DNA of 64,000 nt from Buxus sempervirens (Eukaryota > Streptophyta > Magnoliopsida > Buxales > Buxaceae): assembly GCA_947561395.2 (NCBI GenBank), contig OX387186.1:48999220-49063219 (forward strand), written 5' to 3'. A program made the position numbers and the translations under genes. The notes under the pieces were generated by a model. The model was not told the origin of the DNA and searched no databases. It saw nothing but the letters and a program-made list of their open reading frames with translations. Below, one piece after another: positions 4,504 through 61,422 of this stretch. The stretch's first letter is position 1. Every line of letters starts with the position of its first letter.

Positions 4504-5009
4504 TACGACCTAAATGATCATGGGGTACAACTCAACTGATCATCGGGTACAACCTAATTCATTAAAAGATACAACTCAGTTTATCGTAGGATACCTAATG
4601 CATCAAGGGGTAAAACTCAGTTCATCGAAGGGTACAACCCAACTTATTGTGGGTACAAACCCAACTCATTGTTGGATACAACCCACTCATCCTAAGGTAC
4701 AAGAGTTCATCAAAGGGAACAACTCAACTTATTATGGGATACAACCTAACTCATCAAGAGCTACAACCCAACTTATTTATGGTACAATCCAACTCATCAA
4801 GGAGTACAACTCAACTCATCATGAGTTATAACTCAACTCATCATAGGGTACAAAACTTATCATAGGATACAACCTAACTCATCAAGAGGTTGTACTTTAG
4901 GATGAGTGGGGTTATACCTTGTGATGAGTTGGGTTGTACTGGGTTATACCATTTGATGAATTGTGTTGTACCCCAGAATGAGTTGGATTGTACCCCGTGA
5001 TGTGTTGCG
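4504..5009. repeat. Minisatellite, segment 2 with orientation switch
   Basis: Units read tacaacccaactcatc up to about 4885 and gatgagttgggttgtac from about 4900 onward, so the array turns around here. The short open frames at 4514-5158 are by-products of the repeat. Confidence 0.75.
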
Positions 5010-5556
5010 TAGGACTGAAAATGGATCAGATATATATTCGAATCCGACCTGAATCCGATCCGAAAATCTTGAATTCGGATATGAGATATATATCCGTGAA
5101 TACGAATATCGGATTTTTGAATCCGACCGAATTCGGATCCGAATTCAAATCTGTCCATATCCGATCCAAATAGGATCTAAACCGAAATCAACATATACTT
5201 TTCATTAAACCATTGGTAAACTTTGTATAAACCATGGTCGAACCATCCTTACTCATGTCTTGCTTTAATATTTATATGGCTCATGAGTTTTGATAGTTAA
5301 AATTTGCATTAATAGTTAAACTTGATTTTTGAGTTTTAAGTTCAAATCGGATCTAACTCGAATCAAATTCAGATTTCGGCTATTTATTCGGTCGAATTTC
5401 GAATTCGGATATAGTATATAAATTCGGTTTCGAATTTGGATTCACGTATAAAAGATTCGTCGGATTTCAGATCGAATTCAGATATCAGATTTTTATTTTC
5501 GGTTCAGATTCGGATCATGGTAGATCCATACCGTATTCGACCCATTGCCAGCCCTA
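5010..5556. mobile_element. hAT-type MITE, 547 bp, with 8-bp target duplication
   Basis: The left end reads taggactgaaaatgg and the reverse complement of the right end reads tagggctggcaatgg. The element is bounded by an exact 8-bp direct repeat gtgttgcg (5002-5009 and 5557-5564), the size made by hAT transposases. The subterminal parts are dense in gaatccgatccgaa-like repeats, shared with the larger element at 6230-9799. It is non-coding and depends on a transposase in trans. Confidence 0.8.
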
Positions 5557-6229
5557 GTGTTGCGTTGTATCCTACGATAAATTGGGTTGCACCCTTTGAT
5601 GAATTGGGTTATACCCCTTAATAAGTTAAGTTGTACCTTATGATAAGTTCAGTTGTACCCTTTAATGAATTAGGTTGTACCCTATGGTTAGTTGGGTTGT
5701 ACCTCATCATGTAGGTTGTACCCAATGATAAGTTGGGTTGTATTCCTTGATAAGTTAAGTTGTACCTTATGATAAATTGGGTTGTACTTTTACCCCATGT
5801 TGAGTTGGGTTGTACCCCTTGATAAATTGGATTGTATCCCTTGATGAATTGGATTGTATACCATGATGGGTTGGATTATACCCATAATCTAGGGCTTCAA
5901 ATGTATCACTTGAATTGTATCACTAATTCTCAATTAACAAGAATTGGATGCTGTATCGGCTGGAGCCTCTTGTGTGAAAGATCAGCTAGAGCATCCACCA
6001 ATCTTCGCCAATGTCCCAATCAATCATTATGCCAATTTATCATGATGAAATGGGTTGTATCTAGTGATAAGTTGGATTGTACCTCATGATGAATGGATTT
6101 GTACCTAATGATGAGATGAGTTGTACCCTATGATGAACTATCATGTACCAATGATGAGTTGGGTTGTACACACAATGAGTTGGGCTATGATAGACTAAGT
6201 TGTACCCTTAATAAGTGGGTTGTACCCAG
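5557..6229. repeat. Minisatellite, right arm
   Basis: Units of ~24 bp reading gatgaattgggttgtaccc. An embedded copy of the ~75-bp motif ggctggagcct ... agagcatccacc lies at about 5949-6025 in the same orientation as the copy at 3236-3310. Cut at 6229 by the large hAT element. Confidence 0.7.
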
Positions 6230-6656
6230 TAGGACTGTAAACGGAGCGAATACGGAGCGGATCCTGTTGCATCCGAATTCGAATCCGTTTAAGTAATAGG
6301 ATATCCGTATTCGTTTAAATATTCGACGGATATTTGAAATACACTACCAAGTCCGAATCCGATAAAAAATGTTACATCCGTATTCGTATCCGATTGTATT
6401 CGAATTCGATTAAATATTCGAATCCGTTAAGAGATCCGAAAATCCGATTAAATTTTGTCTAATTTAAACAATAAAATTAGTTTTTCCAATCAAACCATTG
6501 GGCTTTAATAAATGATACAACAAACAAATGATACAATAAAAACAAAAAAATCATACAAACAAAAATTAAAAAAATTAAACCACATTAGTCTTTCTTTATT
6601 ACACAAACAAATGATACAATAAACCAAAATAAATAAATAAAAAATACATTCAAAGA

Positions 6657-7349
6657 TCACTCATATGCCCACTTCTGTTGCCTCCTGAGTTCAACTCCAA
6701 AGTTGAAATTACCTGTATTTCTGAAAGTATACACCCATGCAATGCCATGACCATGAATGCACAATGCCTTAGAGCACCACTTACTCTGACATAATCCTTC
6801 CAATGATAATTGAACGTTTTCTAAGGGCCATGAGGTGGCTCCCAGACAGCAAAACCCATCTGCAGATAAAAATCTTTCCAAACTTCTGTTTATGCCATTT
6901 GTTTGTTTTGTTTTTGCTCTTTGTTTTCACAACAAAAGGTTTGAAAATTACATGCGAATTATTTGATTCAAAGTTTTCTGATTATTACAATCATCTGCAT
7001 GGAGGTTCTCATAAGTGGGACTCATCTAATGTGGGTCATGATCTTTCTAGTCATAAAACACATACCACTGTCGGAATGTTGGGCTTGAGAATCCTTGTTT
7101 TGTTCTGGAATTCCCCTTTCGGTATTGAGAATATTTGACAAAAACTTCTTGAGTAGTAAAATCTCTGATGATTTTACTGATTTGCATCATGTATAAATAT
7201 TTTCTTGAATTTTTTCTTCCATCATTTGATGTGGTCTGTACAAGTTTATAACTAACAATGGAATCACTTAATAGTAATAAGTTGGTTTGAAAGTAAAGGA
7301 TTTGCCACATTGCAAAATTAAGAGTGAAACATAAGAAGTTAGAAATCAT
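6657..7349 (-). other. Unassigned coding-like segments inside the hAT element
   Basis: Two minus-strand open stretches (6657-6881, ending [11 protein letters not shown]; and about 7047-7250 with the segment TTSNDGRKNSRKYLYM) have charged, exon-like composition but no family I recognise. They lie downstream of the bL28 copy in the same orientation and could be further captured exons or chance frames. Confidence 0.25.
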
Positions 7350-7579
7350 TCTTTCCAGACTTCTGTTATGAGGAGATTCGACAGTGAAGGATTTGCGACA
7401 TTGTGAAAAGATTGGGATAAGTAAATGCTCCGATAAAAATTCCCATTCAAGTCAATATGAAAATTTAGTGTCCAAAAGTTCTTATCAAATATTGATATAT
7501 TAAAATTTTCCACAAGGTTCAGCATATTTAGGCTTAAATTTCAGAAATAATAAAAATTGACTTATACAAGTTGAGTTAC

Positions 7580-7692
7580 CTCAGAGAAATCATCATCTGA
7601 CAACATGCAAATGAGAATATCATTTTTCGTATTGGAAACTTGGAGTAGAACCTCTATACTGTTGTCATCCATCCTCAAGGCCTTCTTTATGC
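7580..7692 (-). pseudogene. Exon-like fragment of an unidentified gene inside the hAT element
   Basis: A 113-nt segment lies between a ttcttttag acceptor and a GAG/gtaact donor on the minus strand. One frame is open throughout and includes KALRMDDNSIEVLLQVSNTK. The splice borders and the acidic end (SDDDFSE) suggest a real internal exon. I do not recognise the family. It follows the bL28 stop by about 160 bp, so it may come from a second donor gene or a fused transcript unit. Confidence 0.4.
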
Positions 7693-7849
7693 CTAAAAGA
7701 ATATAAAAAACAATTTATTGTATTAACTTCTTCTTAAACTGAATTCAAATTTCACAGAAAAGAAAAATGTCACAACAGGAAAATAAATACAACAAATTAG
7801 AATTTAAATTCCTGTCAGTAAGAAACAAATGGGAACCGTGTCATTCTTT

Positions 7850-9415
7850 TCATAGATCTATTCCAGCCTTCTTCGCAACGGCGTCTAGCCCATTCTTCTC
7901 TATGGTTTTCAATGCCTTTGTCGACAAGCAAAATTTAATGTAGCGCTTCCTTGCTTCCCACCAGACCCTCTTGTATTGCAGGTTCACAAACTGCAACTTT
8001 TTGGAATGTTAGTAGATGGCCAATTCCGAGGATGAAAGTAAAATCAAATACTTGCATTATATTTTGAAGCCCAAGAACACAAGATTCACTTTTCAGGTTA
8101 ATCACAAAATTTTAGGATGTAAACAATAATTAAAAAAAGAATTATATACTGAAATTTTCTTGAATGAACCTGCAACGAACCAGAGAAAGTTAAGGACAAT
8201 GTGTCATCCTATTGGACTATAAACATGGTTTCTACTTAATGCAAAACATGAAAATAGAAATATTAAAGTAAGAAATCAAGGTGACATTGCATTATTTTAG
8301 ACTTCAATTTTCAGCATGAGTTATGCACCTAGTTGGAATTGAAAATGCAGATCCCCAAAATGGCTTTTTTATAATGATCTATAAAATCAAAACTCCATAT
8401 TCATACTCAAGAGTTTCCAAACATATCTCTGTTATGTTGGAATATCAGAAGAGGAAGAGCCAAATCTACAGATGAAAAAAAAAAAAGAATTGTATTGTAT
8501 TTTGAAGCCCAAGGCCACGAGATTCGCGGATTAGATTAATAACAAAATTTTCAAACTTAAATAACTGTGAACCAAAGACATATATCTTAACATTTTCCTG
8601 GATTGAATCTGAACTTCAAAAGAGAAAGTTAAGGAAAAAGTTTCACCCAATTGGGCTATGAACACGAAAATCAACACTAAAAATCAATTAGGTAAGGTAA
8701 AATTTGGTTTAAGTATCGGTTACCCCAATATTGCAGCTTTTGTACAAGAATCTAAAACTTCAAAATGGTGAAATATCAACATGGAATTTTCAAAATCTCT
8801 CTGAAATTTACCTCATAAAACGATGAAGATCACTATTCTGTCAAAAACAAATTTTCAGATTATTTTACAACTTTGTTTTGATGTGTCTACGTCACTTTAA
8901 GCTATGCAATTGAGCATCACAGAACATGGAAACTAAAAGAAAAATCATTTTTTTGTAAGCCAAAATAAGATCAAGAACTTCAGGACTCCATCAGCACCGA
9001 AAATGAACATAAAAAGTCAGGAATTAAAGAAACTGAAACGAGTACAAAGATATATGAAACAGTTTTCTTCAACACCCATATGCTCGTTTCGCCCTCTTCA
9101 ATTGATCTAAACGAACTCAACAAAGAAAAACGCACCCAAAAATAAAAATGCAACCTCCATCTGAAAAGAAGAGGAGAACTTACGCGCAACCGGCTGAATC
9201 GGAAGTCTGGAAGGAGTCGAGATGGGCTTGGCGTGGTTAGAGGCAGAAAGACTATAGTGGCGAGAGATTTGGATGCCAGCCAACTGTGAGGTTAGAAACC
9301 CTAGATCCGAAACCGAGTTCGAACCCAAAAACGGTTTGGTTGAGCTACTGGTTCTACGAAAGCAGAGATTGGAGGAGTGACTGAGTAAGATGCCATTTGT
9401 TCCTGCCATCGCCAT
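7850..9415 (-). pseudogene. RPL28: Plastid 50S ribosomal protein bL28 gene copy, central exon missing
   Basis: Exon 1 (9415 down to 9184) encodes a chloroplast transit peptide with LGFLTSQLAGIQIS and PIQPVAR, matching the N terminus of plant plastid L28, and ends at a GTAAGT donor in phase 1. The last exon (7990 down to 7850) encodes [20 protein letters not shown] and ends KKAGIDL-stop, the bL28 C-terminal half; its acceptor is TTGCAG after a CTAAC branch-like site. The expected middle exon with the CPFTGKK...VSFSNHKT core was not found anywhere in the intervening 1.2 kb, and direct joining of exon 1 (phase 1) to the last exon (phase 0) would shift frame. The whole copy sits within a hAT element. 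It is probably a captured, non-functional paralogue; a functional gene should exist elsewhere. Confidence 0.75.
8050..8690. repeat. Diverged intronic duplication in the bL28 copy
   Basis: The segment at about 8055-8230 (ttttgaagcccaag, then cagagaaagttaagga, then cctattggactataaacatg) is repeated at about 8497-8665 with the same order of phrases. The duplicated block lies where the central exon would be expected. Confidence 0.6.
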
Positions 9416-9540
9416 ACTTTTCTTTTCTCTCTGTCTCTCTCTCTCCCCTTCCTGATAGTGCTTCCGTGGTGAGGACTCGCCGTTCGGACTTCAGATAGAG
9501 GGTTAGGGTTTAGGGCAAAATCGCAAATGTTGCTTTTATA
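9416..9540 (-). promoter_or_regulatory. Captured 5' leader/promoter of the bL28 copy
   Basis: A ctctctgtctctctctctcc tract (minus-strand GA-rich leader) lies immediately 5' of the bL28 ATG, with ggtttagggc-type telo-box-like sequence around 9500-9515. Telo-boxes and GA-rich leaders are frequent in plant ribosomal protein promoters, so promoter sequence may have been captured with the gene. Activity is unknown. Confidence 0.35.
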
Positions 9541-9799
9541 CAAAGAGCATAAAATTACTTTCTTATCCTCAATACTATATATAATTTACAAATACATTAT
9601 ACCTATTTAATCGGATTCGGATCTTAATGGGACGGATATTGCCCTGATCCGAGTCCGAATCCGATTATAAACGGATCTGAAAATCGGATCCGAATCCGAT
9701 CCGACAGATCATTTAATCGGTTAAAAATCCGATTAAATTGGATAATTTAATCGAAAACGGACGGTAAACGGGTCATGATCCGATCCATTTACAGCCCTA

Positions 9800-9918
9800 G
9801 TACCCAGCGATGAATTTGGTTATACCTAGTAATGAATTAGGGACACATGGCAAAGATATATGGATGCTTCAGCTGATCTTCCAACGTCAGGCTTCAGCAG
9901 ATACAGGGCCAGCAGAAG
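9800..9918. repeat. End of minisatellite and right terminal motif of the foldback-like element
   Basis: Minisatellite units (gatgaatttggttatacc) resume after the hAT target duplication. A sequence follows at 9862-9914 that is approximately the inverted form of 3236-3290. Confidence 0.5.
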
Positions 9919-11779: not shown

Positions 11780-12083
11780 GTCCCTACTAGTAGCCTTTTA
11801 ATGGACGAACTTGGGCATACTTGTCCTAGTCTAACCATCAAGCTGGTGACAAAGACCGTATCTCTTATATATAACCTCCAACTCGGCCCAAGCCCGTACA
11901 ATGCACGGCCCAGCCCTAATCAGGATCACTTTCCTGATAGGAAAGCCATCGTAATGCTTCTACTTGAATCACATTCTGAACCGCCAACCCACCATAACAG
12001 GAACTTATAGCTGTTAAGTAAGTCGCCTCCCCGACTGTGAGAGGATTTCTGTAATCTGTAAACCTCAACTGTAATAACTTCCA
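11780..12083 (+). promoter_or_regulatory. Putative promoter and 5' UTR of the PPR-DYW gene
   Basis: This is the 300-bp interval between the MITE and the PPR ATG. A tatatataa-like stretch near 11863-11872 could serve as a TATA element. No other motif is assigned. Confidence 0.35.
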
Positions 12084-14774
12084 ATGTCCGCAACGGCATC
12101 ACCATGTCCATTATATCCTCCTCTTCCTTCACACACTCTCTCTTCCCGCCAAAACCAACCACCGGCAATACAAAGACAAAATCTCCGACCAACTCCTCTC
12201 ACCATCACCACCACCAATGGTAGAAAACCTGGACCCAAATCATGTCCAGCGGATTCATGGATTGAGGCCCTTCGGTCTCATACGCGGTCAAATCTCTTCC
12301 GAGAAGCCATATCTACTTACATTGAAATGACGGTTGCGGGTATTCCACCCAATAATTTTGCCTTTCCTGCAGTTTTAAAAGCTGTCACGGGTCTGGAAGA
12401 CTTGAATTCTGGGAAGCAATTGCATGCTGCTGCCATAAAGTTTGGTTATGACTCGTTGTCCATCACAGTGGCTAATGCCCTTCTTCATATGTACGGAAAA
12501 TGTGGCGATATAGGGGATGTGGTCCAATTGTTTGAAAGAATTCCTCATCCAGATCAAGTTTCTTGGAATTCAATGATTGCTTCATTGTGCCGATTTGAGG
12601 AGTGGGACCTTGCACTAGAGGCTTTTCGATCAATGCAATCAGGACATGTGGAGCCGAGCTCGTTTACTTTGGTTAGTGTTGCAGTTGCTTGCTCCCGTTT
12701 GAATAAGCATGTTGGTCTATGGCTTGGGAAGCAACTTCATGGATATGTTCTGCGAATAGGTGATGAGAAGACATATACAAACAATGCTTTGATGGCTATG
12801 TATGCCAAATTGGGGAGAATTTATGACTCAGAAGCTCAATTTCAGCTATCTGCAAACCATGGTGACATTGTTTCATGGAACACCATGATAAGTTCATTCA
12901 CACAAAATGATCTTTTTTTGGAGGCACTGAACCTCTTGTACAAAATGGTTTTTGAAGGAATTAAACCTGATGGTGTCACCATATCTAGCGTGCTCCCTGC
13001 GTGCACTCATTTGGAGATGTTGGATAAAGGAAAGGAAATCCATGCTTATGTCTTGAGAAACGATAATCTTTTTGAGAATTCTTTTGTGGGTAGTGCAATT
13101 GTTGACATGTATTGTAATTGTGGAGATGTTGAAAGTGGCTGTCAAGTCTTTTATGGGATCTCTGCTTGCAGAATTGGGCTTTGGAATGCAATGATTGCTG
13201 GTTTTGCACAAAATGGGCTTGACAAGGAGGCATTGAGGCTCTTCATTGAAATGGAAGAGACCACAGATCTCTGCCCAAACCCAACCACAATGGCAAGTGT
13301 ATTGCCAGCTTGTGTACGCTGTGAAGAATTTTCACATAAAGAAGGCATTCATGGATATGTGGTGAAGCGAGGTTTTGGGGGAGATAGGTTTGTGCAAAAT
13401 GCACTTATGGATATGTATTCTAGGATGGGGAAGCTGGAAGTTTCACAGCGGATATTTGAGTGCATAAAAGTTAGAGATATAGTTTCTTGGAACACCATGA
13501 TCACAGGCTATGTTATCAGTAATCGCAATGACGATGCATTTCTTCTAATATATGAGATGCAGAGAGTACATAAAGCAAAAGACAAGAACGATGATGACTG
13601 CAGTGATAACAACAATGATTCTTATAGACCAAATGCAATAACGCTGATGACTAGTCTTCCTGCTTGTGCTGCCCTAGCAGCATTAGCTAAGGGAAAGGAG
13701 ATCCATGCCTATGCTATTAAGAACATGTTAGCATCAGATGTTGCTGTTGGTAGTGCACTGGTAGACATGTATGCAAAATGTGGTTGCCTGACCTTAGCAA
13801 GGAGAGTTTTTAATGAGATGCCTAAACGAAATATTATCACATGGAATGTTCTCATCATGGCTTATGGAATGCATGGACAAGGAGAGGAAGCTATAGAGTT
13901 ATTTAAAAATATGGTGACTGAAGGATCCAGGGAAAGCAAAGTGAAACCAAATGAGGTTACATTTATTGCAATTTTTGCAGCTTGCAGTCACTCTCAGATG
14001 GTGAGCCAAGGCCTGGATTTGTTTCACAGGATGAAAGATGACCATGGTATTGAACCTACAGCTGATCACTATGCTTGCATTGTGGACTTGCTTGGTCGAG
14101 CAGGTCAGCTAGAGGAAGCATTCCAAATAATTGCTACCATGCCTTCTAGTTCTGACAGAGCAGGTGCATGGAGTAGCTTGCTTGGTGCTTGTCGAATACA
14201 CCAAAATTTAACTCTTGGAGAAATCGCAGCTGAGAATCTCATTCACTTGGAGCCTAATATTGCTAGCCACTATGTTTTACTCTCTAATATCTATTCATCT
14301 GCTGGGCTCTGGGACAAGGCAATGGAGGTCCGAAAGAACATGAAAGAGAGGGGAGTAAGAAAAGAACCAGGGTGCAGTTGGATTGAGTTTGGTGACAAGG
14401 TTCATAAGTTTCTGGTTGGTGATGCTTCTCACCCACAAAGTGCTCAGCTTCACGCATATCTTGAGACATTGACAGAGAGGATGAGGAAGGATGGATATGT
14501 GCCCGATACTTCATGTGTTCTTCACAACGTGGATGAAGATGAAAAAGAGTATCTTCTATGTGGGCACAGTGAGAAATTGGCCATTGCATTTGGTATCCTC
14601 AACATGCCTCCTGGCACCCCAATTCGAGTTACCAAGAACCTTAGAGTTTGTAATGACTGTCACACAGCAACTAAGTTCATCTCGAAGATTGTAGAGAGGG
14701 AGATAATTGTAAGGGATGTAAGGAGGTTCCATCATTTCAGAGATGGTTCTTGTTCTTGTGGAGATTATTGGTGA
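12084..14774 (+). CDS. PPR-DYW chloroplast RNA-editing factor, OTP84-like
   Basis: A single uninterrupted 896-aa frame. Residues 1 to about 50 are Ser/Thr/Pro-rich and basic, consistent with an organelle transit peptide. About residues 55-690 are PLS-type pentatricopeptide repeats (recurring VSWNTMI, NALLHMYGKCG, VDMYAKCG blocks), followed by E/E+ motifs (AGAWSSLLGACR, EPGCSWIE) and a DYW deaminase domain. The deaminase signature is visible: HSE at 828-830, CNDCH at 856-860 and the terminal CSCGDYW at 890-896. Overall sequence, length and repeat order closely follow Arabidopsis At3g57430/OTP84, which is needed for C-to-U editing of several plastid transcripts. Orthology is inferred from memory of that protein. 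An Asp/Asn-rich insertion (KAKDKNDDDCSDNNNDS) sits between two repeats near residue 500. The start is the first ATG and gives a plausible transit peptide. Confidence 0.93.
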   Translation: MSATASPCPLYPPLPSHTLSSRQNQPPAIQRQNLRPTPLTITTTNGRKPGPKSCPADSWIEALRSHTRSNLFREAISTYIEMTVAGIPPNNFAFPAVLKAVTGLEDLNSGKQLHAAAIKFGYDSLSITVANALLHMYGKCGDIGDVVQLFERIPHPDQVSWNSMIASLCRFEEWDLALEAFRSMQSGHVEPSSFTLVSVAVACSRLNKHVGLWLGKQLHGYVLRIGDEKTYTNNALMAMYAKLGRIYDSEAQFQLSANHGDIVSWNTMISSFTQNDLFLEALNLLYKMVFEGIKPDGVTISSVLPACTHLEMLDKGKEIHAYVLRNDNLFENSFVGSAIVDMYCNCGDVESGCQVFYGISACRIGLWNAMIAGFAQNGLDKEALRLFIEMEETTDLCPNPTTMASVLPACVRCEEFSHKEGIHGYVVKRGFGGDRFVQNALMDMYSRMGKLEVSQRIFECIKVRDIVSWNTMITGYVISNRNDDAFLLIYEMQRVHKAKDKNDDDCSDNNNDSYRPNAITLMTSLPACAALAALAKGKEIHAYAIKNMLASDVAVGSALVDMYAKCGCLTLARRVFNEMPKRNIITWNVLIMAYGMHGQGEEAIELFKNMVTEGSRESKVKPNEVTFIAIFAACSHSQMVSQGLDLFHRMKDDHGIEPTADHYACIVDLLGRAGQLEEAFQIIATMPSSSDRAGAWSSLLGACRIHQNLTLGEIAAENLIHLEPNIASHYVLLSNIYSSAGLWDKAMEVRKNMKERGVRKEPGCSWIEFGDKVHKFLVGDASHPQSAQLHAYLETLTERMRKDGYVPDTSCVLHNVDEDEKEYLLCGHSEKLAIAFGILNMPPGTPIRVTKNLRVCNDCHTATKFISKIVEREIIVRDVRRFHHFRDGSCSCGDYW

Positions 14775-52955: not shown

Positions 52956-54206
52956 TCAAGTTGGAGTGTGGATGTCTAGAACTCCCAACTTGCTAAGATG
53001 TGTTTGAAAAGCAATCTGTCCCAATGGTTTTGTGAGGATGTCAGCAATTTGTTTCCCTGTTTGCACATAGGTTGTTTCAATCTCCCCATTTTGAATCCGT
53101 TCACGAACCGTATGACAATCCAACTCAATGTGTTTGGTGCGTTCATGATACACCGGATTCGCTGCTATGTATATGGCGGCTTGGTTGTCACAAAACAATT
53201 TTGCAGGCTCACTATGGTTAACATGTAAGTCTTGTAACAAGTATCGTAGCCAAGTGAGTTCACAGGTGATCGCTGCCATAGACCTGTATTCGGCTTCTGT
53301 TGAAGATCTGGACACTGTGGTTTGTTTCTTGCTCTTCCAAGACACAAGTGCTTTCCCAAAGAATATACAATATCCCGTGATTGACCTCCGTGTAGTTGGG
53401 CACCTAGCCCAATTTGCGTCACAATATCCAATTAATTTCAATTGATTATGTGCCGGGAAGAATAATCCTTGGCCTAGGGTCTCCTTTAAGTAATGCAAGA
53501 GGCGATGTACAACATCAAGGTGTGGCCTCCTTGGTTGCTGCATAAATTGACTAAGAGTGGAGACGGAATATGTGATATCTGGTCTCGTGATAGTAAGATA
53601 GATCAATTTCCCAACTATTCTACGATAATGAGTTGGATCCTTGAGAAGGTCACCATCAGTTGGGGTTAACTTCAAATTTTGCTCCATTGGAAATGTGGCA
53701 GGCTTTGCACCAAGTAAACCTGCTTCTTCCAATATATCCAGTGTATATTTCAGTTGACAAATAGAAATACCAGCCTTGGAACGTGCAACCTCTATCCCAA
53801 GGAAATACTTCAAGGATCCAAGGTCCTTGATCCGGAAACATTTGTTTAGGAATTGCTTGAGATCACTGATTGCATCCTCATCGTTTCCTGTGATGATCAT
53901 GTCATCAACATAAAGTAAGATGGCAATGAAGGAGTTAACATACACCTTAGTGAATAGAGAATAATTTGCCCTTGATTGTTGGAATCCAATGTTTTGAATC
54001 TCAGAAGAGAATTTGTGAAACCAACTTCGAGATGCTTGCTTGAGTTCGTACAGGGACTTATTGAGTTGACACACAACTTGCTCCCCCTGTCGACGATAGC
54101 CGGGTGGAGGATGCACATAAACTTCCTCAGTGAGATCGCCATGGAGGAAGGCATTTTGGACGTCCAGTTGGTGGAGGGGCCAGTCACGAACTGTAGCAAC
54201 AGTCAA
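52956..54206 (-). pseudogene. Copia reverse transcriptase and RNase H
   Basis: A 416-codon open block with QLDVQNAFLHGDL, the RT catalytic YVDDM in LLYVDDMIITG, GSLKYFLGIEV, and RNase H signatures (YCDANWA, SSTEAEYRSMA, TKHIELDCH). The upstream RT start is cut off by a TAG at about 54315 where related elements have a sense codon. Confidence 0.9.
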
Positions 54207-54311
54207 GAGGCAATGTACAGTGATGAGTTTGGAAACAGGGGCAAAAGTCTCTGTGTAGTCGATGCCCTCGCGTTGTGTGAAACCTTTGGCAACAAGACGA
54301 GCTTTATAGCG

Positions 54312-56285
54312 CTAGACAGTACCATTAGAATGATATTTGATCTTGAACACCCATTTACAACCAATGGGCCGATGATCAAGAGGAAGAGGGACCATGGTCC
54401 ATGTGTTGTTGGCTTCAAGGGCACAAAGCTCGGCTGTCATGGCGTCAACCCACTTCAAGTCTTGACTGGCCTGTTCATAAGACACTGGTTCGACCAAATG
54501 AGAGACATTGTGTATAAATTTCCGATGAGGAAGTGACAAATTGGAGTAGGATACATACCGAGCAAGGGGGTACCGGGTGCCAGGCGTGGAAGAAGTGACG
54601 GCGGCCTGATCAAGCAATAAAGCATGGTTGACATGATAATCTTGGAGATGAACAGGGGCTCGGGTGGGGCGTTGAGAACGACGAATCGGTGCTTGGGCAA
54701 GAGGCAGATGCAACGAAGTGATGGGTGGGGTGGTAGCATCCGTGATGGGTTCAGTAACCGTGATGGGTATAGCATCCATGATGGGTGGGTGAGGAACGCT
54801 GATGATGGGTGATGTGGGAACATTGATGATGGGAGATGATGGAGTTGAGCATGAGGGATGTGCATTGTGATTAGGATAGGAAGCATTCTCATCAAGGGGA
54901 ATAGGTAAGATGGGATGATCAGATTCATGGTCTGGTGGTGAGGTACAGAAAGGAAAAGAATGTTCATGGAAGACAACATCCCGTGATGTGAAGAATTTCT
55001 TTGTGTCAAGATCATATACCCGATATCCCTTTTGGCCAAGAGGATAACCAACGAAGATGCATCGACGAGCACGGGTGTCAAATTTGTGAGTAGGTGTGAG
55101 GTTGGTGACATAGCATAGACATCCAAAGATTCGTATATGAGAGTAGTTTGGTGAGTCACCATGTAAGACTTCATATGGGGATTTGTGAGATAACAAAGGT
55201 GTAGGAAGCCGATTGATAAGATAGCAAGCTGTTTGGATACTTTCTCCTCAAAAACTTAAGGGTAAGTTGGCTTGAAAACGAAGAGCTCGCCCCACATTCA
55301 AGAGGTGACGATGTTTGCGCTCAACAACACCATTTTGTTAGGGTGTGTGAGGGCAAGAATGTTGAAAAATAGTTCCACGATCATTAAAAAAAGATTGCAT
55401 GGATGTGAACTCTTTCCCATTATCACTCTGAATAGCTTTAATATCACAATGAAATAGAGTTTTAACCCAAGAAAAGAAAATTTTCAATAATGGTTGTGTC
55501 TCAAATTTAAAACTCATAAGATGAATCCAAGTATAACGAGAAAAGTCATCAACAATGGTGAGAAAATATCGTGCTCCAGAATGAGAATTAATCCTATGAG
55601 GTCCCCAAATGTCACAATGGAGTAAATCAAAAATTGAAATTGATGAAATGGAACTATGAGAAAATGGTAATCGTGTTTGTTTGGCTAGAGGACAAATGTC
55701 ACAAACATGGTGGGAGTTAAAAAATATTCCTGGAATAGTCTTGGATAATGCCTGGAGGGGTGCAATGGAAGGATGTCCCAATCGTTGATGCCATAAGTTG
55801 GAGGTGCTTTTGATGCTGTTGGTTAAGTGTGGATTCTGGTTGTGCTTGAGGTAATACAACCCATTATATTTCTTGCCCAGGCCAATCATCCTATTCGTAT
55901 CCACGTCCTGCACCACACAGAAATCAGGGAAAAAAGTTACATTGCATTTCAAGGCTTGAGTAAGTTTGCTAACCGACAATAGATTAACCCGAAATTTTGG
56001 AACATATAACACCCCATCAAGAGTCAAGTCTGATGATAGCCATATGGTCCCAGTGGACTTGATCTCTGTTCTACTACCATCGGGTAGTTCCACAAAATCA
56101 CAATACGCACCATGTTTATTGTGTATTGGTGAAGACTTAGATATGTGATCAGTCGCACCACTATCCACAATCCAAAATGAATTTGAAGGAAAGTCATGAC
56201 AAGTAGTGTTGCAAGTGGATGTATGTATACCTGCAGTGTTTGCAAATGACTGATCATTACCATTCTTTTTTCGAATCATGGCCAT
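54312..56285 (-). pseudogene. Copia protease and integrase, broken by stops
   Basis: Two same-frame blocks (56285-55338 and 55196-54312). The protease shows FWIVDSGATDHIS; the GAG-pre-integrase zinc motif LWHQRLGHPS and CDICPLAKQTR follow; the integrase core has DLLHCDIWGP, FLTIVDDFSRYTWI and IQSDNGKEF. The region 55197-55337 holds a TAA and a TGA. The C-terminal block includes the SPYEVLHG and RCIFVGYPLGQKGY segments. Confidence 0.88.
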
Positions 56286-56355
56286 GAGTTGATTGTATTC
56301 TTCAGTGGTGAATGTGACTCTTTCATCACATTAGCCTTTGGTGGATTCATCCCTA

Positions 56356-57204
56356 CTATTTTGAGCATTGTGCACAGTCGGCTTCCTCCCCTTTGGCTTC
56401 ACGTTTTTTCCATGAAGTTTGTGGCCAACTGGAAAGCCATGTAAGTAGTCTCCTTGAGGTATTGTTTTCCTGTGCCGTGGAAAGACAAGATGGTGGAACT
56501 ACTTGTCCCATAAGCTGCATTGCATGATGATTATTACCAATATCACGTTGAGAAGCCACATCAACTTGTCTTTCTTGTTGAAGAATCAAGGCATGGGTCT
56601 TCCGTGTATCCGGAAGTTGACTCATCATTAGAATCGACCCTCGAACAGTAGCATAGGATTCATTCAATCCCATAAGAAACTGCATCACTCTTTCCTTCTC
56701 TTCTTGTTCGGCAAGATTCTTCAATCCTCCATAGCTGCAAGTCAATGGTTCACGATATGAGGACAACTCATCCCATAATGCCTTCATCTTGGTGTAATAG
56801 GTGGAGATAGATTGCTGTCCCTATCGATGTTCGACAATTTCTTGTCAAATCTGATAAATCCTGGAATCGTTTCCTTGCGAGAACCTCTCTTTGAGGTCAT
56901 TCCAAACCTCGGCTGCCGTTTCAGCATAGATCACACTCTTGGCTATGTCTGGGTGGATCCAGTTTAAGAGCCATGATAATACCATGTCATTGCATCGCTG
57001 CCAGACAGGAAACTTTGGGTCTGTGGATGCAGGTGTTTTAATGGTTCCATTAATGAAACCGATCTTGTTCTTCGCGCTGAGGCTGATGCGCATAGCACAA
57101 CTCCATTGACCGTAGTTGCATCCTTCGAGTGGTTTGGAAACCAAGACGATACCTGGATGATCGGAGTGATGTAGAACAAGTGGATCTGAAATGTCGATTG
57201 ACAC
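56356..57204 (-). pseudogene. Copia gag, interrupted
   Basis: Blocks 57204-56845 and 56787-56356 share a frame and encode a copia gag (LEGCNYGQWSCAMRISLSAK, EVWNDLKERFSQGN, QFLMGLNESYATVRGSILMM). A frameshift separates gag from the protease frame, and no intact CCHC zinc knuckle is visible where it would be expected (about 56400-56520). Confidence 0.8.
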
Positions 57205-57223
57205 TTCTGTAGTTTTGATACCA

Positions 57224-57311
57224 TGTAGAAAGCCGTTCCTACTAAAAGCTCAAGCTGATAGTAGAGGTGAACTTTATGTATTTAATATATTCCTTAACAC
57301 TCCCCCTCACG
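57224..57311 (-). repeat. Second small PPT-LTR-PBS cassette inside the copia leader
   Basis: On the minus strand a gtgagggggag purine tract (about 57300-57310) precedes a 76-bp TG...CA segment (57299-57224, starting TGTTAAGGAATATATTAAAT), which is followed at once by TGGTATCA (57223-57216), the canonical copia primer-binding site. This looks like a small LTR lying between the element's own leader and gag. Confidence 0.6.
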
Positions 57312-58302: not shown

Positions 58303-59885
58303 GTGGAAAGAGAGTTGCAAGTGAAATATGCGAGGATTCTCCATCAAGAAGAAACCATTTGGTTTCAAAAGTGGCGCATCTCTTGGTTGAAGTTTGGCGA
58401 TGGGAACACTAGGTTCTTCCACCACTCTACAAAGTTTAAGCGCCAAAGAAATTTCATTCGATCATTGAAGAATGCGGACAACATAGAGATTTCTCAGAGA
58501 GCGGAGTTGGAAAGATATGTGGAATCTCATTTCAAACAAGCATACGCCCAAGCTCAGAAATGGGGTGACATTGATCTCCCGGGTTTGATTCACCAACGTA
58601 TCTCTGAGGTCCAGAATGATTCCCTGACCCGTATTCCACTGCCTATGGAAATTTGGTCAACGGTGTAGGAAATGGGACCTTATAAATGCCTAGGTTCGGA
58701 TGGATTTCAAGGCTTTTTTTATCAGTCGTTCTGGGCAATTGTGGGTGATGGGGTCATTGAGACTGTGCAGAATTTTTTCCTGGAGCAGATCATGCTGGCA
58801 GAATTGAATCACACTTTTATATCTTCAATCCCAAAAATTAATCATCCTCGGAGGATTCAGGATTTTTGCCCAATCAGCTTATGCAATTTTTTGTACAAGG
58901 TCATATCAAAAATTTTGGTGAACCGACTGAGACCGTTACTTGCTGATTTAATAGCTCCAGTGCAAGCGGCCTTCGTTCCTGGTAGGGTGATTAGAGACAA
59001 CATATTGATCCATCACGAGATAATTCATGCCTTTGGAAGGAAGAAGAAAGCTCAATCTAAGTCCAAGTCCACCCGCGTGATGGATAAAGGTATGTTTGCT
59101 CTAAAAATTGACCTTTTCAAAGCCTATGATCGTATGAGTTGGAAGTTTCTAGAGAAAGTCTTGTGTTCCTATGGTTTTAATGGTAATGTGGTAAGTTTAA
59201 TTATGAATTGCGTAAAGTCTGTTTCCTTCAGTATTCTATTGAATGGGGGTGTTGTGGGGCATTTTGATGCCAAAAGAGGTTTGCGTCAGGGGGATCCTTT
59301 ATCCCCCTACTTATTCATCATGTGTCAACAAGTGCTTTCATGTGCAATTAATAGGACAGAAATTGATGGTAGATATTCTGGTGTTCATCTGAGACCTCGA
59401 GGTATGCAAATTTCCCATCTCATGTTTGCTGATGATGTTAACTTGTATGGTTATACATCAGAGAGGGAGGCTCACACTTTGCAAGAGTGCTATACAGGTA
59501 CTGCGTGGAGTCGGGACAAGAAATAAATGGAAGCAAATTTGCTATTCAATTCAACAAGAACACATCCGGGCTGAGACGTGCTCAAATAAGGAGAATTTTT
59601 TATGTTACTAGATCTCAAAGGATTAGAACATACCTGGGAACGCCAATGGTGGGGAGAAAGATAAAGGCTAAAGAATGTGAAGATCTCTTGGTGAAGATTA
59701 AATCCCGTTTAGCGGGTTGGAAGGCACTTACTCTCTTTCAAATGGGTAGACTTAAGATCATTCAAGTGGTTCTAAGTGCCCAGCTCATTCATTACATGAA
59801 CTGCTTCAGTTTGCTGAGGAAAATTAACAACGAGATTGATCAACTGGCGAGACAATTTTTTTGGAGAAGAAATGGCCACCAGTAA
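58303..59885 (+). pseudogene. LINE reverse transcriptase
   Basis: Blocks 58303-58668 and 58672-59526 are in one frame separated by a TAG; they carry FGDGNTRFFH, PISLCNFLYKVISKIL, QAAFVPGR, ALKIDLFKAYDR, RGLRQGDPLSPYLF and the catalytic FADD in HLMFADDVNLYG. A frameshift near 59500 moves into the block at 59487-59885 (YLGTPMVGRK, RLAGWKALTLFQMGR), the thumb region. Confidence 0.9.
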
Positions 59886-60201
59886 AGTCTCCATACGTTG
59901 TGTTGGGAAAAGATAACAAGCCCTTGGAGGATCGGTGGACTGAACGTAAAGAGATCCCACGATATGAACAAGGCTTTGATGTTGAAAGGGGCTTGACAAC
60001 TCTCAAATGACCACAATAGTTATTGGGGGTAAGATCATGAAGAATACTTATTTCCCTTCATCTGACTTCATGTCTACTCCCTGCAGGACAAACCAGTCAT
60101 GTGCCTGGAAACAAATGCACGCTTTGAAGCCGTGGGTAAGGAGGGGAAGTGCGTGGACAATTGCAAATGGGTGAGAGGTACACATATCATAAGACATCTG
60201 G

Positions 60202-61422
60202 GTGCATACACTCTCAACCACTGCCGCGGTACAAAAAAATCAAGACATCTTTAATCTATCAACCGTGAGTCAGCTGATTGACAGGAAAATAGGTGAATGG
60301 GACCAGAGCGTGTTGAGTACTTTTTGGGAGCCTCCAATGGTAAGGAAAATTCAACAGACATGTATAGATGCATCCGGTGATAGGGACTGTAAATTTTGGG
60401 CTTCCACAGCATTAGGTAAGTATTCGGTTGCTTCGGCTTACCGCCTATTACTTGGTTTTCCAAACATTGATAATGAAAGGATCTGGTTAAAAATTTGGCA
60501 TCTGTTCTGCCCAAATAAGATTGAATTGTTCATGTGGAAGTGCCTATCCAAAGGCATTCCTACTGCCGATTTACTTAATTCTAGAATTGGTGGATTCGAT
60601 GCACGGTGCCTCTTGTGTCAAGTATCAGGCAAAAGTTTGGAACATTTACTGCTTTATTGCCCGTTCTCTAGGGCACTTTGGATGAAAGAAATGGGCAGGT
60701 CAACTCTGTCTTGTGGCCCCCAGGATTCCTTCTTACTTTGGTTTGCCAATCTCATGAACCTTCTACCCCCTGCTAATTCTTCTCATTTCTTTAACAAAAG
60801 ATTGTTCCTCTCACAGGTAGCAAACTTCGTTTGGGTGGTATGGAAGGCAAGGAATGAAGCTATGTTCAAACAATCCTATCTGATAGTTGAGGGGGCCGGA
60901 GGCCATCTGAGGAAACTTCAAAGCGACTATGAGTTGCTCTATAAAGAGGCATCCCCCGAGTGTGAAGGAAGGAGAATCGTACAAGTTGTATGGAAGAAAC
61001 CAGAAGGAGATTTTGTGAAGATCAATTTTGACGGAGCGTTCCACCAAACTTATCAAACATCAGCAGTGGGCAGTATAGCTCGAGATATGGAGGGCAGGTT
61101 CTTGGTAGCTGTTGCATCATCGGTGGAGGCTTCCTCCAGCTTACAGGCAGAAGCTTTGGCCTTGTTTGAGGCGTCAAAATTGGCAGTAGCTCTTGGGCTT
61201 AAGTGGGTAATATTCGAAGGTGATTCACAGGTCCTGATTAACATGGTTGCATCTTCTTCTCATTCCATTCCTTGGAAGATTAGACCCATAGTTTCAAACA
61301 TTAGGTCAGTGTTGAATCTATTCCAAGAGGTCAAATTTGTTCATGTCTTTAGAGAGGGGAATCATCCGGCAGATCGGCTTGCAAATTTCGCTATAGAAAA
61401 ATACTCTTGTCTGTGGTACTAG
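60202..61422 (+). pseudogene. LINE zf-RVT and RNase H domains
   Basis: An open 406-codon block. zf-RVT: KIELFMWKCLSKGIPTADLL and CLLCQVSGKSLEHLLLYCPF. RNase H: VKINFDGAFH, LQAEALALFEASKLA, VIFEGDSQVLINM and HPADRLANFA near the C terminus. This type of C-terminal RNase H is typical of one clade of plant L1 elements. Confidence 0.88.

Follow-up and report, generated by a model that had tools for sequence, protein, structure and literature searches.

A transposase-less hAT element of Buxus sempervirens that carries a captured piece of the plastid ribosomal protein gene bL28c

By comparing a 64,000-bp stretch of Buxus sempervirens DNA (the window) with the rest of the genome we found that window positions 6230-9799 (3570 bp; genome place C8:49005449-49009018) are one hAT insertion, that this element belongs to a family with stop-free transposase frames, and that the gene captured in it, which encodes the plastid ribosomal protein bL28c, was taken up at the DNA level and has decayed. 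The fuller reading, to which we give a probability of roughly 0.87, is that of a transposase-less Pack-hAT of a large family, which would have acquired its interior by stepwise gap repair, would use the transposase of its relatives and probably holds bL28c as a decaying pseudogene. An earlier note on this DNA had proposed a hAT element enclosing bL28 sequence (a Pack-hAT), and the ends, the target site duplication (TSD), the relatives and a donor gene elsewhere all agree with that proposal.

Ends and insertion site

The element has TAGGACTGTAAACGGA at 6230-6245 and the inverse of TAGGGCTGTAAATGGA at 9784-9799, the two ends differing at 2 of 16 positions. Apart from these two differences, the matching terminal inverted repeats (TIRs) and the exact 8-bp TSD that the earlier note had described around 3.57 kb were borne out. 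The features at the ends and in the flanks are the following.

5955..6229, plus strand: host repeat, left part (flank search of the genome)
6222..6229, no strand: left copy of the 8-bp TSD GTACCCAG, matching the right copy exactly
6230..6455, plus strand: left terminus with subterminal repeats (226 bp), common to the transposase-bearing copies L061-L064 at 97.3-97.8%
6456..6866, plus strand: rest of the left arm, including an ALMT exon, common to the q1-637 copies of the family at 95.6-98.7%
9502..9799, plus strand: right arm and terminus, the last 200 bp found at 95-100% in the best 40 of 455 candidates, own copy included
9800..9807, no strand: right copy of the 8-bp TSD GTACCCAG, matching the left copy exactly
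9808..9910, plus strand: host repeat, right part (flank search of the genome)

The 8-bp TSD and the short TIRs with subterminal repeats are those of the hAT superfamily. Subterminal motifs of the ATCCGA type were clustered in 6271-6447 and 9611-9783, with two sites between the clusters. Over the whole window three end-like sequences were detected at up to three mismatches to the common form (0.28 expected by chance), namely both termini of the element and one terminus of a second element at 5010; at the same threshold 6246-9783 contained no further end-like sequence. The element itself has no transposase sequence, as in a non-autonomous Pack-hAT, and the donor of the host gene sequence inside it, bL28c, can be identified on contig C22.

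The flank of the element is a 22-bp tandem array rich in GTACCC, which makes the TSD alone doubtful, and the ends were therefore tested on relatives. The element inserted into a dispersed repeat that has inverted ends and contains 22-bp repeats. An empty-site query, made of both flanks joined with one TSD copy, gave 53 matches, from which the window's own left flank (1) and short pieces (11) were set aside. None of the 41 remaining long matches (74-81% identity; best 40 of 288 candidates scored) had a large insert at the point where the element stands in the window, and all of them read through it; these empty sites belong to repeats related to the target and not to the orthologous site.

A second small hAT-like element of 547 bp (5010-5556), with exact 8-bp duplications GTGTTGCG at 5002-5009 and 5557-5564, sits in the same tandem-repeat neighbourhood. 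Further along the window a long open frame of 898 codons from stop to stop (12078-14774) is by its look presumably a PPR-DYW protein gene, and we take the frames at 52956-57249 and 58303-61422, likewise by look, to be a copia-type retrotransposon and a LINE-type reverse transcriptase, respectively. Scans of the window with Rfam (gathering threshold) and for tRNAs found nothing.

Family members and transposase

Copies with the same TIRs, which the earlier note had suggested looking for, were found in the genome (an assembly of 676.5 Mb). Searching with the whole element gave 49 matches (best 40 of 728 first-look candidates scored), and 37 places with a match to the left arm were fetched. The left terminus stood against a different flank in 36 of the 37 copies, the other one (L025) having lost its terminus, and L019 and L044 showed a short deletion just inside it. 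Identical 8-bp TSDs, each with its own sequence, were present in 17 of the 19 elements compared at both ends, the window's included; L025 and L063 were the two without a matching TSD.

One relative, L023 (C15:21183639-21190484, 6.85 kb), has the same ends, a perfect TSD (AAGGCTCC) and a frame of 659 codons with both domains of a hAT transposase, the RNase-H fold and the C-terminal dimerisation domain (PF14372, E 1.8e-33; PF05699, E 9.1e-33). With q coordinates counted along the window element (q1-226 being 6230-6455), the two elements have in common the left arm q1-547 and q611-637, q1193-1489 and the last 234 bp, the transposase frame not being shared. The transposase-bearing L023 holds the left arm to q547, hence part of the ALMT exon. 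At least 12 full-length genome copies of the 659-codon frame were found at 97% or more, 9 of them stop-free (best 69 of 1989 candidates). Four other transposase-bearing copies, L061-L064, have on their left side only the first 226 bp in common with the window element. Two of them, L061 and L062, differ in their TSDs but agree at 99.96% over 2629 bp, which points to recent movement. This pair is an indirect sign of cut-and-paste movement by the family's transposase.

At L034 and L060 (C4:28212734-28239091) a left and a right family end were observed 26 kb apart with a matching duplication, CTAGAGGC; this pair is perhaps a nested or composite element.

The captured bL28c gene

The bL28c sequence in the element consists of the following parts.

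7713..9475, minus strand: captured bL28c segment, 51 differences in 1724 aligned sites against the donor C22:22576940-22579482
9184..9409, minus strand: coding part of exon 1 (transit peptide), splice donor kept (donor comparison)
7841..8004, minus strand: exon 2 remnant, with a premature stop (CGA to TGA) at 7852-7850 and the native stop at 7843-7841
8001..8004, no strand: 4-bp microhomology, TTGG on the plus strand, at the join of a 788-bp deletion (donor comparison)

When joined, the pieces matched chloroplast bL28c in the PDB (5mlc, E 7.9e-37), and the exon 2 piece matched PF00830 (E 5.9e-10). The search for the functional bL28 locus and the comparison of introns, both proposed in the earlier note, led to an intact gene on C22, a stop-free two-exon bL28c gene at C22:22577007-22579351. 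A bL28 gene found only in the window with an intact middle exon, which that note had named as a possible refutation, is contradicted by this gene. The protein search of the genome gave 17 matches (all 23 candidates scored): the 2 donor exons, the 2 window pieces, 10 weaker exon 1 pieces (59-71%) and 3 short C-terminal pieces (88%).

In the captured copy 788 bp of the donor (L009:3904-4691) are missing, from within the intron through the splice acceptor into exon 2, so that the intron lacks its 3' portion and exon 2 its 5' part. The gap that the earlier note had read as a lost middle exon is this 5' part of exon 2. The idea of a separate middle exon, for which all six reading frames across 6230-9799 were inspected visually, was rejected, the donor gene having two exons. 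The complete coding sequence with splice sites that marks a functional plastid bL28 gene is absent from the captured copy. As the captured piece comprises exon and intron, the capture went through DNA and not through RNA.

The differences to the donor (3.0%, gaps excluded) were distributed as 7/62 in the 5' flank, 7/229 in exon 1, 30/1154 in the intron, 5/165 in exon 2 and 2/114 in the 3' part. Exons and intron differ alike from the donor, which gives no indication of constraint. When six older bL28 pieces served as outgroups, 11 changes in 705 sites were assigned to the element and 7 to the donor, and 5 were unplaced. Judged by its sequence, the bL28c copy looks like a decaying pseudogene. 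CpG-driven decay as a strong bias was considered but is not supported, the 51 differences including CpG losses at 5 sites on the element side versus 3 on the donor side; the premature stop in exon 2 is a CpG-type change.

Upstream of the bL28c ATG, element and donor have only 66 bp in common, followed by the 26-bp filler described below, and the putative promoter that the earlier note had seen carried along is therefore not supported. At L009:1195-1681, some 0.8 kb upstream of the captured part of the donor gene, there are related but distinct hAT-like end sequences.

Within the family, bL28c cargo was present in one element only (protein search, all 23 candidates; element search, best 40 of 728 candidates), and mobilisation of the cargo to further places, which belongs to some but not all definitions of Pack-TYPE elements, was not seen for bL28c. 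The captured copy is also a warning to annotators: a bL28 gene model placed on the element would be false.

Other contents and joins of the element

The interior had been described as bL28 exon 1 and the last exon; both pieces are present, but 6456-7712 is not bL28, and an exon of a malate transporter and a second segment from C22 had been overlooked.

6714..6859, minus strand: ALMT9-like malate transporter exon with one in-frame stop (PDB 8hiw, E 2e-25; PF11744, E 3.8e-20)
6867..6886, no strand: 20-bp junction filler of unproven origin (join analysis)
6887..7425, plus strand: 539-bp segment copied from C22:23665586-23666125, 97% (genome search)
7422..7718, plus strand: segment common to the family members L023, L031, L034, L036 and L037 at 98.7-99.7% (among fetched copies)
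9476..9501, no strand: 26-bp filler separating the right arm from the bL28c segment (join analysis)

A candidate donor of the ALMT exon lies at C6:45631564-45632287 (97%). The place of the 539-bp segment on C22 is 1.1 Mb from the bL28c gene, and the segment is otherwise single-copy, the only other genome match being 48 bp long. By eye no gene was recognised in 6887-7425, and an exon-like frame at 7584-7698 had no Pfam match. Three of the five joins show microhomology (TAAA, TAT and TTGG) and two have fillers, of 20 and 26 bp; in a simple random model the chance per join is 0.024 for at least 4 bp and 0.07 for at least 3 bp. Neither filler had a significant source (p 0.055 to 0.36).

Cargo in the relatives

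Cargo was looked for in 19 of the 37 fetched copies, and the frames searched were those picked by eye. Matches were obtained to an acyltransferase (L015), ALMT (L018 and L029), eIF1A (L029), an R2R3-MYB (L043), a pseudouridine synthase (L011), a CIPK-type kinase whose best PDB match was CIPK23 (L022), a prohibitin by PDB with a Pfam match under the cut-off (L032) and a leucine-rich repeat just at the Pfam cut-off (L040). Both ends and the TSD are known for L029, L032, L040 and L043, and for L019 of the acyltransferase group; L011, L018 and L022 are known by the left end only, and their cargo lies inside only if the element reaches that far. No Pfam match at the cut-off was obtained with frames of L041 (kinase-like by eye), L027/L047 and L030 or with parts of L022, L023 and L029.

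The acyltransferase-bearing segment was present in six elements, and a candidate donor of its inner 2.0 kb was found at C8:2747506-2749497 (98%). Pfam assigns this cargo to the acyltransferase family only, with no PDB match; we assume that it is GPAT9. The MYB-bearing segment was present in three elements, each with its own TSD, and a candidate donor of the inner 1.3 kb lies at C8:49333791-49335088 (99%). Both segments have been mobilised as cargo in the Pack-TYPE sense. Segments common to family members stand in different orders.

Other bL28c pieces in the genome

A different multi-copy repeat, represented by L071, L072 and L073 (C19:8341083, C9:20296959 and C9:32032383), also holds 393 bp from the 3' end of bL28c, at 94-95% identity to the donor. 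These three copies are 98.7-99.6% alike, and L077 and L078 were grouped with them. The stretches fetched around L071-L073 contained no ends of the window element's hAT family; one boundary of the repeat was found, and no ends of a known kind. Older pieces of bL28c exon 1 and intron were represented by L065-L070 (6 of 10 such places fetched), at 65-86% to the donor in aligned stretches; three of them, L066, L067 and L069, belong to one repeat and agree with each other at 95-98%. That pieces of bL28c turn up repeatedly in other repeats was what we had least expected.

We tentatively consider that the hAT family may act as a standing exon-shuffling system, with at least one transposase-bearing member that has a captured host arm, with segments traded between members in new orders, and with bL28c having been copied on at least three separate occasions into DNA that is mobile or repeated (the window hAT element, the L071-L073 repeat and the older L065-L070 pieces); as a description of the whole family this is possible, though doubtful.

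Proposed origin

In the history that we favour, capture would have begun at a break within an element, most likely an excision gap. The gap would then have been repaired stepwise by copying of unrelated chromosomal templates, with template switches at the short microhomologies found at the joins or with short fillers. The element may subsequently have moved to its present site or may have been repaired in place, the TSD being the same either way and giving no choice between the two. Relatives like L023, the 6.85-kb element on C15, would supply the transposase. The captured pieces diverge by about 3% from both C22 donor places, whereas the left arm differs by 1.3% from its nearest relative and, against the majority sequence of the family, at 3 of 434 bases. 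This would not be expected from a simple one-step history; exchange between copies or later loss of cargo from sisters could be behind this uneven divergence.

Two separate small hAT elements on either side of a resident or translocated bL28 gene, an arrangement named in the earlier note as a possible refutation, might be suspected from the second small element that adjoins at 5010-5556 and from the repetitive flank. However, the matching TSD lies directly outside both ends of 6230-9799, the same two ends recur with matching TSDs in the family, no end-like sequence was found between them at up to three mismatches, and relatives of the flanking repeat run on uninterrupted without the whole insert, so that we regard this arrangement as extremely improbable. 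The interior could also have grown by fusion of neighbouring elements and re-mobilisation of the DNA between them, rather than by template switching in gap repair. Such a model is in print for several superfamilies of Pack-TYPE elements, in the part of that work considered here (PMC8903248), and would be in line with the different orders of family segments and with the end pair that spans 26 kb with a matching duplication. However, the window element has no internal end-like sequence at the same threshold, its bL28c and 539-bp segments were copied from places 1.1 Mb apart, and three of five joins have 3-4 bp of microhomology, which makes fusion the less convincing history and, in our estimate, an unlikely one.

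An expressed and functional captured piece, for instance a short plastid-targeted peptide from exon 1, would fit with the open exon 1, the kept splice donor and a read-through frame of 102 codons from the first ATG. However, the copy has lost its splice acceptor, a premature stop interrupts what is left of exon 2, hardly any upstream DNA was captured, and exon and intron have diverged about equally from the donor; we consider expression and function very unlikely.

Comparison with known systems

Gene capture by hAT elements is already in print, and the window element is a well-documented further case. The earlier note had called such capture less familiar; to judge from the relevant parts of the reports, it has been described for grapevine, for maize Ds, for maize and rice, and for animals (PMC2528002, PMC3260210, PMC8903248, PMC8277862). 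The word hAT is absent from the main text of a 2026 review of plant gene capture (PMC13317346), and our limited literature search found no paper on a plastid ribosomal protein gene captured by a transposon. In the present case one genome provides the donor gene, the joins and empty sites, together with mobilised cargo in sister elements and likely sources of transposase; with such a clean case of hAT capture it becomes directly testable how cut-and-paste elements acquire host DNA.

Previously, Hatvine-6 of grapevine was described, in the portion of the paper drawn on here, as a hAT family with common ends and transposase, in which the remaining sequence of an element is often found only there or in a few copies and corresponds to host DNA, both genic (introns and exons) and non-genic (Benjak et al. 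2008, PMC2528002). By description this fits the Buxus family closely, although it concerns another genome and bL28 is absent from that portion of the account. In maize, gene fragments were reported in 2 Ds2 and 9 Ds-l4 of 903 Ds-related elements, and their presence in hAT elements was called rare in the relevant section of that study (Du et al. 2011, PMC3260210). Like Ds2 and Ds-l4, the window element is a non-autonomous hAT with an 8-bp TSD and filler DNA, and like some of them it has exon and intron from another chromosome; unlike in maize Ds, as far as that section describes it, several groups of one Buxus family carry gene pieces, some of them multi-copy. The Pack-hAT elements of maize and rice are likewise non-autonomous, with host gene DNA between hAT ends, whereas in Buxus a transposase-bearing relative also has the left arm to q547 with part of the ALMT exon, a difference that refers to the part of that work considered (PMC8903248). 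For animals, the passages on Pack-TIRs place 208 of 370 in hAT elements and, as in the window element, describe capture with short microhomology at the joins (PMC8277862). According to the same passages, nearly all animal Pack-TIRs are single-copy and over half lie near the parent gene, whereas in Buxus the bL28c donor and the element lie on different contigs, and other cargo of the family is present in several copies.
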